A stretch of 45,987 bases of DNA, from positions 1-45,987 of the forward strand of contig JAFPVE010000002.1 in the NCBI GenBank assembly GCA_017413025.1, given 5' to 3'. The stretch comes from Acetobacter sp. GTDB lineage: Bacteria; Pseudomonadota; Alphaproteobacteria; Acetobacterales; Acetobacteraceae. The notes below the pieces were generated by a model. It had not been told where the DNA came from. It did no database searches and was given only the letters and a program-made list of their open reading frames with translations. The position numbers were made by a program, and so were the translations under genes. Numbering within the stretch: the stretch's first letter is position 1; each line of letters starts with the position of its first letter. Positions 14,748 through 45,286 of the stretch are shown piece after piece.

Positions 14748-16861
14748 CTATTTATTGTTTTGATTGTCTTGTTTCTTTTTACGGGCGTATTCTTTTAGGA
14801 AGAACATTTCCCATAATTCTCGACACCGCAACACAACGAGTTTTTCTAACCGGGTCAGTTCTTCTATATTTTTATGTTGAAGTTTTTCTTTCCAAAACGC
14901 GTATTTTTTAGGTTTGTAAGGAGTACTGACCATATGCCTTAGGGCAAACCATGGATCAGCAATAGCGGCATCAAAACTTGCTGTTTTTGCCAATGTCTTT
15001 TTGAATTCTTCAGTGTATTGATACGTTTTTCTTACAACAGGGTAGAGATTATCATCATCGTAATAGGTTTTTAACCATTGTAATTTCTGAAAAATCGGTG
15101 CTTTCCGGCTCGTTACACGCACAAAAACAGGAGCACATGTTAAAACTAGTATGGGAAACACAAAAAGACATTGAAACAAAAAAGCTTGTGTTTCACTAAA
15201 ACTTAAACCTGTTAAAAAAAACATTGTCTTCGTATTAACGTAAGGAAAAATTTCAAAATATACATAAGTCAACAACATCAGCCCCAACAATGAAATATAC
15301 CAGAAGCTCTTAAAACAAACAGACCAAGGCAATAATGTGCCATCTCTATCTTGCACTTCCCATGTAATCCGTTTCCGTGCTAACCACAGAAACAAAAAAC
15401 GCGATAAAACACACATCGCAATCAGCTGAACGCACAAATTAAAAAGTATGAAAATAAAATATGAAAAAAAGAATTTTACAGTGCCTCCCATTTTCTCAAT
15501 AAAATGCCTTTTCCTTAAAACAAGAAAGTTCACAAAGATTTGCCCTACAAGAGGTATCATGACTAAACTTGCAAAAATTAAGAAATATTTGGTTTCCTCT
15601 GAGATTGCCATTTGATATGCAGTCCTTACCCAGCCAACACGTAAAGAATGCGTAAAAGCAAGATGCACGGCGTAATACATCACACAAGTGCCACATAAGC
15701 CTAATGAAGCAGCATAGTAAAAAATTGCCCGTTGGAACATTGTGAGCCGCCCAAAAGTATTAAGACTTTTGGACATAAAAAACCGAAACCATTCTTGTGC
15801 CCCCACTAACCACCGCCGCTCCCGTTGGTAAAACGTTAGGATATTATGAAGTTGTTGATCAAAAGCTATAATCTGCGGTAAGACCCATGTCTCATAACCG
15901 CCTCCGTTCATGAGGCACCCTTCGTAATAATCATGCGAAGTCATTTTACCGCTTGGAAAATATCTCGTAGAAGTCGAAACAGGCAAATTACAACATTTCA
16001 TAAAGGCTTTTACCCGTATAATGGCATTATGCCCCATATAAAACCCAAAGCCGGGATTCATATAGTAGTAGTAATAGGTGTAGAGAAAATTATCCGTAAA
16101 AAATCGAAAATTTGATACCCGCCCAAAAATCGTTTCAGATGAAACTTCTACAAAACGCGCTTGGATAATAGCAGTATTATCGTTTCCCTCTATTGTTCTT
16201 GCTAGTTGTATAAAAGACTCACCGGGTAAAATACTATCTGCATCGAGCATAATAACATAATCATATCCCCCCCCCAACGCCTATAAAAATCAGATGTATT
16301 CCCTACCTTAGCAAAAATATTATCCACCCTATGACGATACGCAATACAAAACTTAGGAAACATTCGGCGTAAATGGTGTACAAGCGCACTTTCTTGTACA
16401 ATAATACCTTCTTTCCGACTATCCGAAAGCACAAACCAATCAAAATGATGCGCTTCTGGCATATCTGCCACTTCCTCCATCATCGCTTGAAGCCCGCCAC
16501 CCACACGAGCAACATCTTCGTGATAAATCGGCATTAAGACAGCAATACGCGTGTTTTCTTTTAAAGGAATAGCGTAATTGATCGGATTAAGCGGGTCTTT
16601 CTCAACAGGTTTAAGAGCTGAATATCCCCCCATACAATACAGCAATGCTTGTGCCCCACCTAAAGAGGCGGTTAAAGCCGTCAGTACACATAGAGGAATT
16701 AAAATATAGGGACTCACCCCCATAACAAACAGCTGTATACCAGATAAAGCAAACAAACACACAAATTGTACAGCCGAGACTACAAATAAAATCCGTCCCC
16801 TACTACGCTGCCTCTCTTTTTTCAATAATGAAGCATAGGCTTTTTTGTCCATAATAGCCAT
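14748..16861 (-). pseudogene. second OpgH-type glucan glucosyltransferase, frameshifted at a poly-G tract
   Basis: Two overlapping reading frames together make one OpgH/MdoH-like GT2 membrane glucosyltransferase of about 704 aa. The first part (16861 down to about 16276) has two N-terminal TM helices and the start of the GT domain (VLMPIYHEDVARV, FVLSDSR, then FYRRWGG). The second (from about 16275 down to 14748) continues with YDYVIMLDADS, GHNAIIRVK, SHDYYEG, RERRW and the C-terminal TM block. The break is a run of nine G on the coding strand; ten G would give RRWGGGYDYV, which has the family spacing. As given, translation ends at 16202 after 219 aa, before the catalytic DADS. The ATG has AAGGGA 8 nt upstream. 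It may be a pseudogene, a phase-variable gene in its off state, or a homopolymer sequencing error. Confidence 0.8.
16267..16275 (-). repeat. homopolymer of nine G on the coding strand of the opgH paralogue
   Basis: Nine C on the plus strand, read as G9 in the gene. It lies between the codons for FYRRW and YDYVIMLDADS. G10 (or G7) restores one open frame across the whole gene; G9 gives a frame that stops 20-odd codons later. Long G tracts are rare in this AT-rich sequence, and this is the longest one I noticed. Confidence 0.9.
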
Positions 16862-16943: not shown

Positions 16944-17276
16944 CTAAAAAAGACAATGATTTAAAAGAATATCTTTTAAGCGAGCGTTTTCTTTAATTGT
17001 CTCTAATCCAGAAGGTTTTTGAATTTTAGGAGACCAAATCTCTGGTAAAAGAACCGACTCCGCACAATTCTTAACTTTCTCCCATGAAAGAGATTGTCCT
17101 TGTGGCACAGACAGCCCTGCTTCAACAAGCATTTTCTGTAAAAGCGATGTCTCTAACGCAACACCATATGTCTCACCTGTTGGTGAATTTTCCGCATAAT
17201 CCTCTACAGGATCTAATGGCTGTTCTATTGGTGCACTTATAGAGACTTCGTCTTTCTTCTGTTTTATCTCTCTCAT
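16944..17276 (-). CDS. hypothetical 110-aa acidic protein upstream of the opgH paralogue
   Basis: I do not recognise this protein. It has 110 aa, no signal peptide and no membrane segment. The N-terminal half is rich in E, D and P (EQPLDPVEDYAEN) and looks disordered; the second half is more helical (SLLQKMLVEAGLSV, LETIKENARLKDILL). AAGGA lies 7 nt before the ATG, a convincing start. It is on the same strand as the opgH paralogue, 82 bp before it, so the two are probably co-transcribed. The pairing suggests a role with the glucosyltransferase, but this is inference from position only. Confidence 0.6.
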   Translation of the reverse strand: MREIKQKKDEVSISAPIEQPLDPVEDYAENSPTGETYGVALETSLLQKMLVEAGLSVPQGQSLSWEKVKNCAESVLLPEIWSPKIQKPSGLETIKENARLKDILLNHCLF

Positions 17277-21608: not shown

Positions 21609-22740
21609 TTAACGAGCATTCGAACTTGCTTCTGAACGCGTCGCCCCTACTCGCATAGCTAAAGCCGCCGCCATAAAAGAATCTAAATCACCATCGAGAA
21701 CTGCATCAGGATTACTTGTTTCTACTTCTGTACGCAAATCTTTGACCATTTGGTAAGGAGTAAGAACATACGAACGAATTTGATGCCCCCATCCGATATC
21801 AGTTTTAGCAGCTTCAGCAATAGCATTCGCAGCTTCGCGCTTTTGGAGTTCAACCTCATACAAACGTGCCCGCAACATCTGCATAGCCGTTGCACGATTA
21901 CGGTGCTGTGAACGATCGGTTTGACATGCAACAACAATCCCCGTCGGAATATGCGTAATACGGACAGCTGAATCAGTCTTATTAACATGCTGCCCCCCTG
22001 CTCCAGATGCCCTGAAGGTGTCAACTTTAAGATCTGAATCATTGATCTCAATTTCGATAGAATCATCAATAACTGGATATACCCAAACCGACGCAAAAGA
22101 TGTTTGGCGCCGAGCTGCAGCATCAAAGGGAGAAATCCTCACCAAACGGTGTACACCTGCCTCCGTCTTCAACCAACCATATGCATTAACACCGCTAATA
22201 AGAATAGTAACTGACTTTAGACCAGCTTGTTCTCCTTCTGAACTTTCAATGAATGTCACCTTATAGTGGTGCTTCTCTGCCCAACGCATATACATACGCA
22301 ATAACATCTCTGCCCAATCTTGCGCTTCAGTACCTCCTGCCCCTGCATTAATTTCAAGATAACAATCGTTACTATCAGCCTCTCCAGAAAGCAAACTCTC
22401 AATTTCACGACGACTAGCCTCATCAGCTAATCCGCGCAATATAGCAACACCCTCTGCTATCAACACTGCATCACCTTCGGATTCTGCCAATGTAATCAAC
22501 TCAGAAACATCTCTTACCTCAGCCTCAAGAGCTAAAACACCCTCTATCTGAGAAGCAAGAAGCGTTCTCTCACGCATAACCTTTTGCGCACACTCTACAT
22601 CACTCCAGAAATCAGGCTCCTCTATACGGCTGTTGAGCTCTGCTAACCGATCCTCAGCAACATCCCAGTTAAAGATACCTCCTTAGTAATAACACAGATT
22701 TTCTAATCTGTTCATAAAGAGCTTCTGATTCAGCAGACAT
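21609..22740 (-). CDS. prfB: peptide chain release factor 2, with programmed +1 frameshift
   Basis: RF2 terminates translation at UGA and UAA. The ATG at 22740 (AAGGAG 9 nt upstream) opens 23 codons ending RRYL and then an in-frame TAA at 22671-22669. A +1 shift continues with [13 protein letters not shown] and the rest of RF2, giving about 376 aa in total. The specificity loop SPF ([11 protein letters not shown]) and the catalytic GGQ ([10 protein letters not shown]) are both present. The frameshift window matches the E. coli prfB site in layout, an AGGAGG Shine-Dalgarno-like element, then TAT CTT and the stop, but the stop is UAA here instead of UGA. It lies between tonB and the PBP1A gene, all on the minus strand. 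Confidence 0.93.
22668..22684 (-). promoter_or_regulatory. prfB: prfB programmed +1 frameshift site
   Basis: On the coding strand the site reads AAGGAGGTATCTTTAAC: an internal Shine-Dalgarno element (AGGAGG), a TAT spacer codon, the slippery CTT codon, the stop TAA, then C. The SD-to-CTT spacing equals that of the E. coli site (AGGGGG TAT CTT TGA C). Slippage of the peptidyl-tRNA on CUU to UUU gives the AAC (Asn) continuation. In known sites low RF2 slows termination at UGA and favours the shift. With UAA, RF1 could also terminate, so feedback may be weaker. Confidence 0.88.
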
Positions 22741-36697: not shown

Positions 36698-38878
36698 TCA
36701 GATTGCTGGGAGATCAAGAATCATCTTTACACCTTTACGTGTTGCTAAAACCGCGGCTTTTTCTTTCGCTGTCAAATTACGTTCTGCTGCCTCTAGAGTA
36801 GGGGATTCTGATAACTTAAGAAGTCCAACAAGTTGTTCAACATCTATAGGATCACCTATCTTACGCTCAGGCGGAATCATAGCCAAATGTGCTTGCTGTA
36901 ATGCGATATCAGCACGTAAAGCACGCATGGCTTCGTAAGGTTCCTTGTTGGCAATCTCATGCATATTTTGATCATGTTGTATACGCTTGAGTATATCTAA
37001 GACAACAGGAGGCTTTGTTTCTTCTGGAATAAGCAACAAACCTGATCGACAAAACTGTTGCCCTATTATGCGACTACTCGTCAACGCAACCAGAGGAATA
37101 GAAAACATTAAGCCTAACAGAATAGGTGTCATCCAAAAAAACAACGCAGGCGAAACTATCCATGCGCCTATTCCTAATACCGTTCCAAACACTGTAAAAA
37201 ACCAATAATTCCTAATAACATCCCTTAACGGCGTACGTCCATCATCTCGTCGCTGCACGTTCCAACCCGAATCATGTCCCCTAAGGATAGACAGAATATC
37301 TAGAGTTTGGATCAACATTGAAATGGGTGCTATTAACCCTCCTATCAATGTTTCTAAAAAAACAGAAACCCCAAGCCGCCATGTACCTCCACATTCATTT
37401 CTTACCTTGTGATCACATAACATAGCAATATAAGCCAAAAGCTTAGGTGCTAGTAACACAACCATTGTTCCAATAAACACATTTCTTGCTTGTACGGGAT
37501 CAACATGCGGCCAATTCGGATAAAGTAGTTTAGTCGTTCCAAAATATTCAGGATGATAAAAATACGCCTGTATAGAAATACAAACACCCACAAGACAAAA
37601 TATTAACCACAAAGGTGAGGTAACATATGCCCCTATACCGACAATCATATGCAAACGACTTACCCAATGAAGCTTACGCGTTGGTAATACTCTCATATGT
37701 TGAAGATTACCCTGACACCACCGCCTATCACGAATAGCAATATCTGTTAAGGTTGGAGGGCTTTCCTCATATGATCCATCAAGCGCTGGAATCATATGAA
37801 TAGCCCAACCACCACGGCGCATTAGCGCAGCTTCAACAAAATCATGACTCAAAATATGCCCCCCAAATGGAGGCTGCCCCGATATATGGGGTAACCCTGC
37901 TTGTTCTGCAAAAGCACGTGTGCGAATAATCGCATTATGCCCCCAATAATTCCCCTCTGAACCATGCCACCATGCAATACCAAAAGCAATTATAGGCCCA
38001 TATATCCGACCAGCAAATTGTTGAAGCCGCGCAAACAGCGTAGTTCCTCCAACAATCATTGGTAAAGTCTGGATCAGACCTACACCAGGATTACGCGCCA
38101 TCGCGTCGGCTAGCCGAACAAGTGTCGAACCAGACATTATAGAATCTGCATCTAATATGACCATACACTCATAAGCAGCCCCAAAACGACGAATCCATTC
38201 ACCAATATTCCCTGCCTTTCGTTCGATATTTTTGTATCTACGGCGATAAAAAATACGATTATGCCCACCTGTTTTTTCCCGTAATTCTAGGAATGCCGCT
38301 TCTTCTTGCACCCAGATATCAGGATCTGTAGTGTCCGACAAAATAAACAGATCAAAAGACTCAAGTTGGCCAGTTTGTTCCAGACTGGTATAAATTGTCT
38401 GTACCCCTGCCATAACACGATACGGCACTTCATTATAAGTTGGTAACAAAAGGGCTGTTTTATTCCTCAAATGTGGCAAAGCACCAAAACACTGAATCCC
38501 AAGCCCACGACCACCATGCGTAATAAACGAACAAAATCCAGCCACTGCTGATGTAAAAGCCAAAGCAATCCACATAAACAATACACTAAACAACAGCAAT
38601 ATAATGATACCAAGCGTCGAAACACCTGACTCATCCATCACCTTATGCGTACACCATGCGCCATATATCGTCATCAATAACGCAGAACCAATGACCGCCA
38701 CACGACGTAACACAATACTATGCGGCGAAGTAACAGGTTTACCCTCTCGCCCTTTCATATCTGGAGGAGTACGCAAATCCTGCACCGGCATATCCAACGG
38801 TGCCTCTGGAGGAAGTGCAGGGAAAAACATGCTGTCAGAAAATTTTTGCTTAATTATGGTGTCCACCGGTACAACCAT
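36698..38878 (-). CDS. opgH: glucans biosynthesis glucosyltransferase OpgH
   Basis: Inner-membrane GT2 enzyme that builds the beta-1,2-glucan backbone of osmoregulated periplasmic glucans from UDP-glucose and exports it. It has 726 aa with a cytoplasmic N-terminus, two TM helices, the glycosyltransferase domain and a C-terminal TM block. Catalytic motifs are intact: FILSDTTDPD, VILDADSIMSG (near residue 240), GHNAIIRTRAF, LSHDFVEAALMRRGGW and RDRRWCQGN. The spacing RRFGAAYECMVILDADS is the reference for reading the broken paralogue at 14748-16861. Its start overlaps the opgD-like stop by 25 bp, so the two genes are coupled. Confidence 0.95.
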   Translation of the reverse strand: MVVPVDTIIKQKFSDSMFFPALPPEAPLDMPVQDLRTPPDMKGREGKPVTSPHSIVLRRVAVIGSALLMTIYGAWCTHKVMDESGVSTLGIIILLLFSVLFMWIALAFTSAVAGFCSFITHGGRGLGIQCFGALPHLRNKTALLLPTYNEVPYRVMAGVQTIYTSLEQTGQLESFDLFILSDTTDPDIWVQEEAAFLELREKTGGHNRIFYRRRYKNIERKAGNIGEWIRRFGAAYECMVILDADSIMSGSTLVRLADAMARNPGVGLIQTLPMIVGGTTLFARLQQFAGRIYGPIIAFGIAWWHGSEGNYWGHNAIIRTRAFAEQAGLPHISGQPPFGGHILSHDFVEAALMRRGGWAIHMIPALDGSYEESPPTLTDIAIRDRRWCQGNLQHMRVLPTRKLHWVSRLHMIVGIGAYVTSPLWLIFCLVGVCISIQAYFYHPEYFGTTKLLYPNWPHVDPVQARNVFIGTMVVLLAPKLLAYIAMLCDHKVRNECGGTWRLGVSVFLETLIGGLIAPISMLIQTLDILSILRGHDSGWNVQRRDDGRTPLRDVIRNYWFFTVFGTVLGIGAWIVSPALFFWMTPILLGLMFSIPLVALTSSRIIGQQFCRSGLLLIPEETKPPVVLDILKRIQHDQNMHEIANKEPYEAMRALRADIALQQAHLAMIPPERKIGDPIDVEQLVGLLKLSESPTLEAAERNLTAKEKAAVLATRKGVKMILDLPAI

Positions 38879-40398
38879 TGCTCAGATACCGGACCATTCT
38901 CTGTCTCCAGAGTAGCGTTAAGATCAGATACCTTAGCATCACCGGGCACGAACTCAAATGTAGCACGCCACCCGTTAATCTCCGGGTTCGGCTTAACCAC
39001 GACATTATGTATTGTACCAGCAGAAGCTTTAGGTGTAATATGAAAACGCGTGTCTTTTGGTAAATGACTAAAAAGATCCCCTGTAAAATCTATACAAAAG
39101 AAACGCGCATCTCCATTATCCGCTACGGCTCCTACACGCGTTGCCCCAATTCTAGCCAAGGTTGTCGGAAAAGGAACGTCCCACCCCCAATACATACGAT
39201 AAGTATATGTATATTCTTGCCCGGCACGCAAAGGTTCCTTTGGTCGCCAAAACGATACAATATTATCATTAACTTCATTAGGTGTAGGAATTTCTACCAA
39301 TTCCACCCAACCAGAACCCCAATCTCCAATAGGTTCGATCCATAAAGAAGGACGCTTTTCATAATGAAGAGTTAAATCTTCAAAATCATGAAAAGCACGC
39401 ATCCGTTGCATTAACCCAAAGCCTCGCGGCGATATGTCAGAAAAAGTCGAAATTTGAAGATCTAATGGGTTACAAAGTGGACGAAAAAGTTGTTGCCCTG
39501 AACCAGTCCACATTTGCAAGGCTTCACTATCGTGCGCTGCAGGACGCCAATCATCAACATGGCTATGATCGTTGACACCAAAGTAATACATGCTTGTTAA
39601 CGGAGCAATACCCGACTGTTTAACAACTGTACGAGGAAATAACGATGTTTGCACGTCAAATACCGTAGGATCACCTTGGCGAATCGTAAAGCGAAAAGCA
39701 CCAGTTAACGACGGACTGTCTAGCAAAGCATAAAGCACCATTGCTTGAACACCTGGGCGTGGTTTCTCTAACCAAAACGCACGAAAAATAGCAAACTCCT
39801 CACCTTTCGGATCGCCGGTGCCATTAGCAAAGCCACGTGCATAAAGACCATAAATCTGTCCTTTGGCAACAGCTCGAAAATAAGAAGCCCCTAAAAAAAC
39901 ACAAAACTCCTCTTTAAGGTCAGGCGTATTGATTGCTGAACACAAGCGAAAACCTGCAAATCCTAAATCACCATCAACTTTTAATGCCGGGTCAGCATAA
40001 GTAAATAAATCAGACGAATAAGGCACTACACGTGATCGACCATTAACCACCTCATAGATCGCTACACGCGGTCGATAAAGAAAGCCACGCGGAAAAAACT
40101 CCACATCGAAAGCTAAATTATCTTTAGCCCACAAAGCACATTCACGTTTATACGTAATACTACGATATTGGTCGAATGTTAAATTTCTAATTGCTTTAGG
40201 TAAATGCTGTTCTGGCTCGTGATAAGGTGAAGTAGATAATTTACGAGCAATTTGGATAACAGTACTATCATCAAAGTCACCTATTGCATCCTCAATATTT
40301 TCAGCTCGTGCAGCATGTACCAATCCATCCGTCATAGAAAACAGTGCAGCTCCAACCCCTACCCGAATAACATCACGCCGATTCACCTTTCCTAACAC
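38854..40398 (-). CDS. opgD: periplasmic glucan biosynthesis protein (OpgD/OpgG family), Tat-exported
   Basis: Periplasmic enzyme that processes or branches the glucan emerging from OpgH. It has 514 aa. The N-terminus carries a twin-arginine signal (VNRRDVIRVG, then a weakly hydrophobic stretch, cleavage near HAARA), which favours OpgD over the Sec-dependent OpgG. The mature part is a typical MdoG domain: FDVEFFPRGFLYRPRVAIYE, SSYFRAVAKGQIYGLYARG-like region, FGVNDHSHVDDWRPAAHDSE (acidic catalytic region) and YRMYWGWDVPFP. The start is GTG at 40398 with AGGAG 7 nt upstream. Confidence 0.92.
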   Translation of the reverse strand: MLGKVNRRDVIRVGVGAALFSMTDGLVHAARAENIEDAIGDFDDSTVIQIARKLSTSPYHEPEQHLPKAIRNLTFDQYRSITYKRECALWAKDNLAFDVEFFPRGFLYRPRVAIYEVVNGRSRVVPYSSDLFTYADPALKVDGDLGFAGFRLCSAINTPDLKEEFCVFLGASYFRAVAKGQIYGLYARGFANGTGDPKGEEFAIFRAFWLEKPRPGVQAMVLYALLDSPSLTGAFRFTIRQGDPTVFDVQTSLFPRTVVKQSGIAPLTSMYYFGVNDHSHVDDWRPAAHDSEALQMWTGSGQQLFRPLCNPLDLQISTFSDISPRGFGLMQRMRAFHDFEDLTLHYEKRPSLWIEPIGDWGSGWVELVEIPTPNEVNDNIVSFWRPKEPLRAGQEYTYTYRMYWGWDVPFPTTLARIGATRVGAVADNGDARFFCIDFTGDLFSHLPKDTRFHITPKASAGTIHNVVVKPNPEINGWRATFEFVPGDAKVSDLNATLETENGPVSEQWLYRWTP

Positions 40399-44677: not shown

Positions 44678-45286
44678 TCAAGCTGAGGGTTCCAAATCTT
44701 CCGCACTATTATCTCTGAAAAAGAACCAACTTTGACCGCCATCTTGAGTATAGATAAACTCTATGTCTTTTTGACCGTTAGAAGAACTAATTATTGATGG
44801 TTGGGTTGAACCTCCAACAGATTGATTCAATAAAGAATCGCACCAAAAATGACTAGAATCACAGATGTTTACAAGTGGGAGATCTCGATATAAAAAAGAG
44901 GGATTGATAGACGACGGCATATTGACTGTAAAATTTGATGTCGTAGAAGGTGGTGAAACAAACTCTAGAGCTATCACCGAAACCTTTTCTAGTTTTGAAG
45001 CCATTACAAGATCCCGGAGATTTATAGACGATTGCGATACTGATGTCTTTCCGGTTAAATCATTTGGATTTGGAGAGGTATGAATCGGCGTAATGACAAA
45101 TAATGTACAAGCCGTAGGAGGTAGAACGCTATCTCTAATATCCTTCAAAGCAGCAAAAGCCGTCTCAAAAGGCTTTTGATTTTTACAGGCGTTAGCGTCA
45201 AAAACTTGCCGAACAATTTCTGTGTTATTAGCTTCGTTTACTGTTGCACCCCCCCCTGACCCAGTAAACATGATCAGTAGTACCAC
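44678..45286 (-). CDS. hypothetical membrane-anchored protein, natural start probably frameshifted
   Basis: I do not recognise this protein. The intact frame has 202 aa if started at GTG 45286, with a partial hydrophobic start (VLLIMFTG), a Gly-rich turn and then a soluble, Ser/Thr/Asn-rich domain with five Cys (NAC, TAC, NIC, FWC pairs) and a final YTQDGGQSWFFF segment. Upstream the same frame reads KKVIIISSIIGIIGVVLLIM, an ideal membrane anchor, but the ATG at 45333 is joined to it through a run of eight A that is one base too short (or two too long). So the real start is probably that ATG with slippage or indel. Expected location: anchored in the inner membrane, facing the periplasm. It converges on crcB. 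Confidence 0.55.
   Translation of the reverse strand: MVLLIMFTGSGGGATVNEANNTEIVRQVFDANACKNQKPFETAFAALKDIRDSVLPPTACTLFVITPIHTSPNPNDLTGKTSVSQSSINLRDLVMASKLEKVSVIALEFVSPPSTTSNFTVNMPSSINPSFLYRDLPLVNICDSSHFWCDSLLNQSVGGSTQPSIISSSNGQKDIEFIYTQDGGQSWFFFRDNSAEDLEPSA

Follow-up and report, generated by a model that had tools for sequence, protein, structure and literature searches.

A G9 tract between the two halves of an OpgH-like glucosyltransferase gene: a probable contingency locus in a small-genome Acetobacter

In Campylobacter jejuni and Neisseria, runs of G or C lie within surface-sugar and methyltransferase genes. In the genus Acetobacter, polE, which belongs to pellicle variation, reportedly switches through a homopolymer. 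Campylobacter and Neisseria are the classical hosts of poly-G contingency loci, and 29 loci with runs of 7 or more are given for C. jejuni NCTC11168 (PMC4965091). For A. pasteurianus, interconvertible rough and smooth pellicle variants are described in PMC5553594, and hyper-mutable tandem repeats in strain IFO 3283 are cited in PMC4686929. An earlier note on the DNA analysed here had called phase-variable glucans new for this kind of bacterium, which is too strong a claim with the pellicle variants already in print. What looks new is the scale of the tracts and the classes of genes that carry them. Open-access titles and abstract openings on phase-variable mdoH or osmoregulated periplasmic glucans describe no switched OPG synthase, and the open-access literature searched yielded neither a switched OpgH-like synthase nor a contingency repertoire of several gene classes in acetic acid bacteria. 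The open-access matches for phase variation, phasevarion or homopolymer in Acetobacter or acetic acid bacteria look incidental, judging by title.

The locus lies in a stretch of 45,987 nucleotides (the window), which is contig 8 of an Acetobacter genome of 1,464,704 bases in 45 contigs (G000). It is compared throughout with a genome of the same genus, G012 (1.7 Mb), taken as the sheep-abomasum MAG Acetobacter sp. isolate RGIG5182. As in C. jejuni and Neisseria, G/C runs occur in surface-sugar and methyltransferase genes and stand in differing frames within one genome. Unlike in those bacteria, the host is an alphaproteobacterial Acetobacter, the gene proposed to switch is an OpgH-like family 2 glycosyltransferase (GT2) gene, and switching is predicted here from the sequence. 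The locus would have in common with the rough and smooth pellicle variation (polE and related genes) that a surface polysaccharide changes spontaneously and reversibly in the same genus (PMC5553594), but the gene is another one. Type III methyltransferase genes split at G11 and G13 further resemble phasevarions, the phase-variable type III mod genes; in contrast to known phasevarions, these candidates are found in Acetobacter and are proposed here from their gene sequences.

The split gene, its relatives and its likely product

The features of the window that bear on the gene are the following.

14748..16277, minus strand: 3′ half of the GT2 gene, which is read in a different frame, with DADS, SHD, RERRW and the C-terminal part, without a further stop
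16267..16275, minus strand: G9 homopolymer tract (C9 on the plus strand), the proposed slippage switch
16276..16861, minus strand: 5′ half of the OpgH-like GT2 gene, 195 codons ahead of the tract; the open frame continues to 16202
16944..17276, minus strand: small gene of about 110 amino acids directly upstream of the GT2 gene, without a Pfam match
36698..38878, minus strand: intact canonical opgH/mdoH paralogue without the tract (NF003956, 1029 bits, cut-off 864)
38854..40398, minus strand: opgG/mdoG adjoining the canonical opgH (PF04349, 609 bits)

The frame of the 5′ half is open for 219 codons from the ATG at 16861, enters the G9 tract and ends about 24 codons further on. The other frame leads out of the tract with the residues LGGGYDYVIMLDADS and is open for 509 codons (14748-16277). 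Seven codons separate the tract from DADS, and the catalytic motifs of GT2 enzymes (DADS, SHD and the RxxRW type) are found in the split gene. The earlier note had reported that the nine G place the two halves in different frames just before DADS, and that about 500 codons past the tract stay open with all motifs intact; coordinates, sequence and the retained DADS, SHD and RERRW agree with both statements. The gene thus has a homopolymer within its coding region whose length sets the frame, as in contingency loci mediated by simple sequence repeats (SSR).

Both halves are matched by the same set of nine NCBIfam MdoH models, with all scores below the curated cut-off. In the best model, NF003958, the 5′ half covers positions 24-203 (103.8 bits) and the 3′ half positions 201-694 (222.8 bits); the halves, scored apart, do not reach the family cut-off of 419, and even their summed scores stay below it. 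OpgH/MdoH, the GT2 glucosyltransferase of glucans biosynthesis, is therefore the best curated family for both halves, with which they share the DADS, SHD and RxxRW-type motifs. In contrast to that family, the split gene scores below the curated cut-offs, falls into a separate tree group, has no adjoining opgG and has relatives that are accompanied by polysaccharide export genes. PF04349 is found in the window solely at 38854-40398, and the neighbours of the split gene are the small gene, a TPR gene and RND-type genes (RND named by eye). In a tree of 36 second-half sequences, the inner order of which is unsure owing to long branches, the window copy belongs to a group of seven rows (support 100/100) that stands apart from the canonical Acetobacter OpgH and also contains the copy on contig 43 of the same genome (G000:C43), two G012 copies, genes of G006 and G033 (contig C54) and a plasmid gene of A. 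persici. Another gene of G033 (contig C27), that of G035 and a plasmid gene of A. pasteurianus cluster separately, on the same side of the midpoint root as the canonical sequences.

The gene neighbourhood of the relatives points to the product. In all six tract-free relatives read with their flanks, the GT2 gene comes after an OPX (polysaccharide export) gene, which is matched by Poly_export in the four that were scanned and annotated as such in two. A. persici has a short gene between the OPX and GT2 genes, and a 'capsular polysaccharide synthesis protein' comes next. The G000:C43 copy adjoins a Poly_export gene and an AT3-SGNH acyltransferase gene, and the G012:C12 copy adjoins a Poly_export gene; next to the window copy there is no OPX gene. 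The gene ahead of OPX, which looks KpsE/Wzz-like by eye, has a Pfam match in none of the five cases scanned, and a search of solved structures with the intact C43 paralogue as the query gave no match at E<=0.001. Because the tract-free relatives adjoin polysaccharide-export genes, a surface or capsule-type polymer is the likelier product, rather than a periplasmic glucan. The earlier note had named a periplasmic or surface glucan, of which the surface alternative gains from these neighbours and the periplasmic one becomes less likely.

The tract site in sister genes and the orthologue in a related genome

Four OpgH-like copies are readable across the tract site, and all four carry a G run of 8 or 9, so that the length differs (8 versus 9) between paralogues.

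Copy in the window: G9, out of frame
Copy G000:C43 (L098): G9 at the homologous codons, in frame, 682 codons open
Copy G012:C8 (L036): G9, in frame; 5′ end lost at the contig end
Copy G012:C12 (L035): G8, out of frame; TAG about 315 codons further on

Two residues separate Gly/Ser from Tyr/Phe in 30 of 30 loci, canonical OpgH types and G000:C43 included, and the frame arithmetic of the earlier note, which had counted two residues from Gly to Tyr, is right. At this site, none of 29 further loci read, mostly canonical OpgH types, has a G run of at least 7, and the stretches read of the flanked relatives in G006, G033 (two) and G035 contain no G or C run of at least 8; the tract thus probably arose within the G000/G012 lineage.

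The copies other than that in the window look mosaic-like. Between G000:C43 and G012:C12, the nucleotides are 85-97% identical from about 300 bases before the tract up to about the tract, mostly 40-68% identical in the middle and mostly 73-92% identical near the 3′ end. The same pattern, in which the block up to about the tract and the 3′ end are alike and the middle has diverged, appears to include G012:C8. The 5′ half of the window gene shares 54% identity with G012:C12 and 49% with G000:C43.

The window gene itself has a syntenic orthologue in G012, which, as judged by gene order and identity, is present as two pieces at contig ends. G012:C6 ends in the three RND-type genes that also neighbour the window gene (86-91% identity), together with the final 83 codons of the GT2 gene (90%). 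G012:C47 ends in homologues of the four genes that flank the GT2 gene opposite the RND-type genes (71-90%), together with the small upstream gene (90%) and the initial 50 codons of the GT2 gene (71%). The middle of this orthologue, including the tract, was not found in the G012 assembly. In the comparison of the tract among related genomes that the earlier note had proposed, the sister copies show G9 in frame in G012:C8 and G8 out of frame in G012:C12, and the syntenic orthologue has no readable tract. The ends of G012:C30 and C57 probably hold a second window-type GT2 copy, split between them and cut near the same residues as the syntenic copy, as would be seen for a collapsed repeat.

Over the last 83 codons, the window gene is 90-92% identical to the two G012 copies, with a dN of about 0.04 and a dS of 0.18-0.20 against either copy. 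The resulting dN/dS of about 0.2 speaks against prolonged neutral decay, although the stretch is short and contains 16 differences; this is the comparison of synonymous and non-synonymous change past the tract that the earlier note had suggested. The small gene at 16944..17276 has a syntenic counterpart in G012:C47 with 90% identity. The short genes ahead of the GT2 genes in G000:C43 and G012:C12 are 74% alike and have no detectable similarity to it. One conserved small partner gene before all OpgH-like copies was considered and rejected, since the small gene of the window matches only its G012:C47 counterpart; against those of C43, G012:C12 and A. persici, the best E is about 0.8.

G/C runs across the genome and the genus

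G000 contains 34 distinct G/C tracts of 9-12, collapsed from 57 overlapping G9 matches. From Markov models built on the window, 1.7 (order 1), 1.3 (order 2) and 4.2 (order 3) tracts would be expected, and the excess over chance (34 against 1.3-4.2) is of the kind that contingency loci would produce. A/T runs of at least 9 in the window show no excess (3 observed, 2.7-6.6 expected). On the plus strand, G000 has 16 tracts of 9-12 in 1.46 Mb and G012 has 27 in 1.7 Mb, which makes them the two densest per Mb of 49 genomes of the genus; the remaining 47 have 0-20 plus-strand tracts in 2.3-4.7 Mb. This comparison rests on forward-strand counts, as reverse counts are inflated through double matches, and the forward count of G000 agrees with the 16 plus-strand tracts in the list of distinct tracts. 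How the genomes rank varies with the measure, since G025 and G019 too come out above G000 when overlapping G9 words are counted per Mb. G012 has 54 tracts of at least 9 in all. The idea that the tracts stem from a loss of mismatch repair finds no support, as MutS (906-codon frame) and MutL (631) are present in G000 and both are also open in G012; they were found in all eight genomes searched.

Several of the runs lie in genes of DNA methylation and restriction. In G000, a type III DNA methyltransferase gene is split at G11 (G000:C42:3822-3832; L096:3323-3333), where one frame covers positions 8-435 of PDLC03634 and the second frame positions 437-614. A divergent type III DNA methyltransferase gene in G012:C41 is split at G13 (L153:2031-2043), with PDLC03641 covered over 56-435 and then 440-630. 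The two runs split these divergent genes at the corresponding place, and both genes are candidate phasevarions. In a restriction specificity subunit gene of G000 (G000:C4:6611-6622; L074), G12 lies between two recognition domains and is out of frame; the counterpart in G012:C55 (L166:3204-3216) has G13, in frame. The two genes are 98.5% identical over 132 bases before the tract and 96.2% over 53 after it, which is, as far as sequence comparison goes, the most direct evidence in this analysis that the length of the run varies and determines the frame. From about 55 bases past the tract onwards the two genes differ, and the second recognition domains are not alike; the genes are therefore not simple alleles. 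In this differing part, the G000 sequence matches a stretch ahead of the G012 run (96.9% over 128 bases), which suggests that the recognition domains may be shuffled too.

Other runs lie in or near genes of the cell surface. Six lipoprotein-type genes follow one pattern, in which the signal peptide contains a C run of 9-11 immediately ahead of the lipobox.

G000, lipoprotein-type genes with the C run: C16:40366, C31:175084, C38:1109 and C43:88074
G012, lipoprotein-type genes with the C run: L123 and L127

An in-frame ATG is present in three of the six and absent in three, and one of the three with an ATG has only 51 codons open past the tract. A further G/C run (L085:3218-3226) precedes the first ATG of an OmpA-family gene by about 75 bases, and its flanks recur near the starts of four other contigs (C17, C21, C30 and C36); this run may be a promoter switch of a gene family present in several copies. 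In G012, two genes for GT25 (LPS-type) glycosyltransferases (L103 and L105) carry G9 in frame. The window contains one more run within a gene.

45249..45256, minus strand: G8 run, in frame, in the gene for a small protein with a hydrophobic N-terminus

A look-alike of this small protein, recognized by eye, is found at G000:C31:200673-200682 with G10, out of frame. A separate frame irregularity of the window concerns 21609-22577, which reads like peptide chain release factor 2 and apparently lacks the usual N-terminus in this frame; this is perhaps the programmed frameshift common in that gene.

Runs of 9-10 also stand in frame in housekeeping genes, namely ilvC, priA and aroKB of G000 (L095, L075 and L092) and atpF and mqo of G012 (L113 and L128), and many G/C runs are without a long frame on either strand. 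A long tract by itself is therefore no proof of a switch. G runs accumulate widely in the G000/G012 lineage, and for each of them we infer any selection for switching.

Competing explanations and biological meaning

A frameshift fixed once in a redundant paralogue would leave a plain pseudogene, the decay of which would fit the position of the window copy on the longest branch (2.12) of the second-half tree and the intact canonical opgGH in the same window. The G012:C12 copy, likewise out of frame, contains a further lesion, a TAG, which would suit a gene in decay. Such decay is unlikely, as the 500 or so codons past the tract run without a further stop and keep their motifs, the syntenic orthologue is retained at the low dN/dS over 83 codons, and the lesion sits at a G9 that two other copies carry in frame. 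The long open frame and the conserved motifs would also be expected if transcriptional or ribosomal slippage, which is generally known on homopolymers, yielded some full-length enzyme from the out-of-frame allele. However, in-frame copies of equal tract length indicate that the site is not built round one fixed offset, and we hold this explanation to be very improbable.

Homopolymers are the usual site of sequencing errors, and G012 is a metagenome assembly, both of which favour an error of sequencing or assembly, or a consensus drawn from a mixed population, with the dominant allele actually in frame. A mixed population, if true, would itself be phase variation. The G9 of C43 in the same assembly is in frame, which argues against systematic errors at that length, and tracts that are out of frame are also found among the methyltransferase and specificity genes of two genomes. 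Error, the main alternative in the earlier note, is less likely than was feared there; we still count it, at a decidedly low probability. The runs could instead have grown by mutation in a reduced genome, without selection for switching. Many tracts lie outside genes, as far as frames show, and the in-frame runs in ilvC, priA, aroKB, atpF and mqo extend the excess beyond contingency-like genes. Against growth by mutation stand the presence of MutS and MutL, the lack of an A/T excess in the window and the recurrence of tracts at the same site of diverged genes and at signal peptides, and we consider it rather improbable.

We conclude that the G9 tract of the GT2 gene is probably a real poly-G contingency locus. 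The phase variation proposed in the earlier note is supported indirectly, by the tract excess, the in-frame tract in two related copies and the specificity gene, the copies of which in the two species differ by one G and in frame. At G9, translation would stop about 24 codons into and past the tract, before DADS, and no active enzyme would be made. Slipped-strand mispairing would alter the tract length, and at other lengths the frames would join and the membrane GT2 would be produced. As judged from the neighbours of its relatives, the enzyme would probably build or extend a polysaccharide of the surface or capsule type, with OPX-type machinery as its exporter. The set proposed to switch in this lineage would comprise the OpgH-like genes, the lipoprotein signal peptides, the tract upstream of the OmpA-family gene, the type III methyltransferases and the specificity subunit.

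The broader proposal, to which we give about even chances, is that a small-genome gut Acetobacter runs a contingency system in the style of Neisseria and Campylobacter, with stochastic switching of G tracts that acts on capsule-type GT2s, surface lipoproteins, the promoter of an outer-membrane protein and DNA methyltransferases. The GT2 family would, in addition, be reshuffled as mosaics, with the tract ending a conserved block beside the variable catalytic and membrane region. Acetic acid bacteria are known mainly from fermentations and insects; if the proposal is true, they include gut species that hedge their surface and methylome like mucosal pathogens. It would then be testable, in a genus that is harmless and offers many relatives with few tracts, whether contingency switching follows host-associated life rather than pathogenicity.
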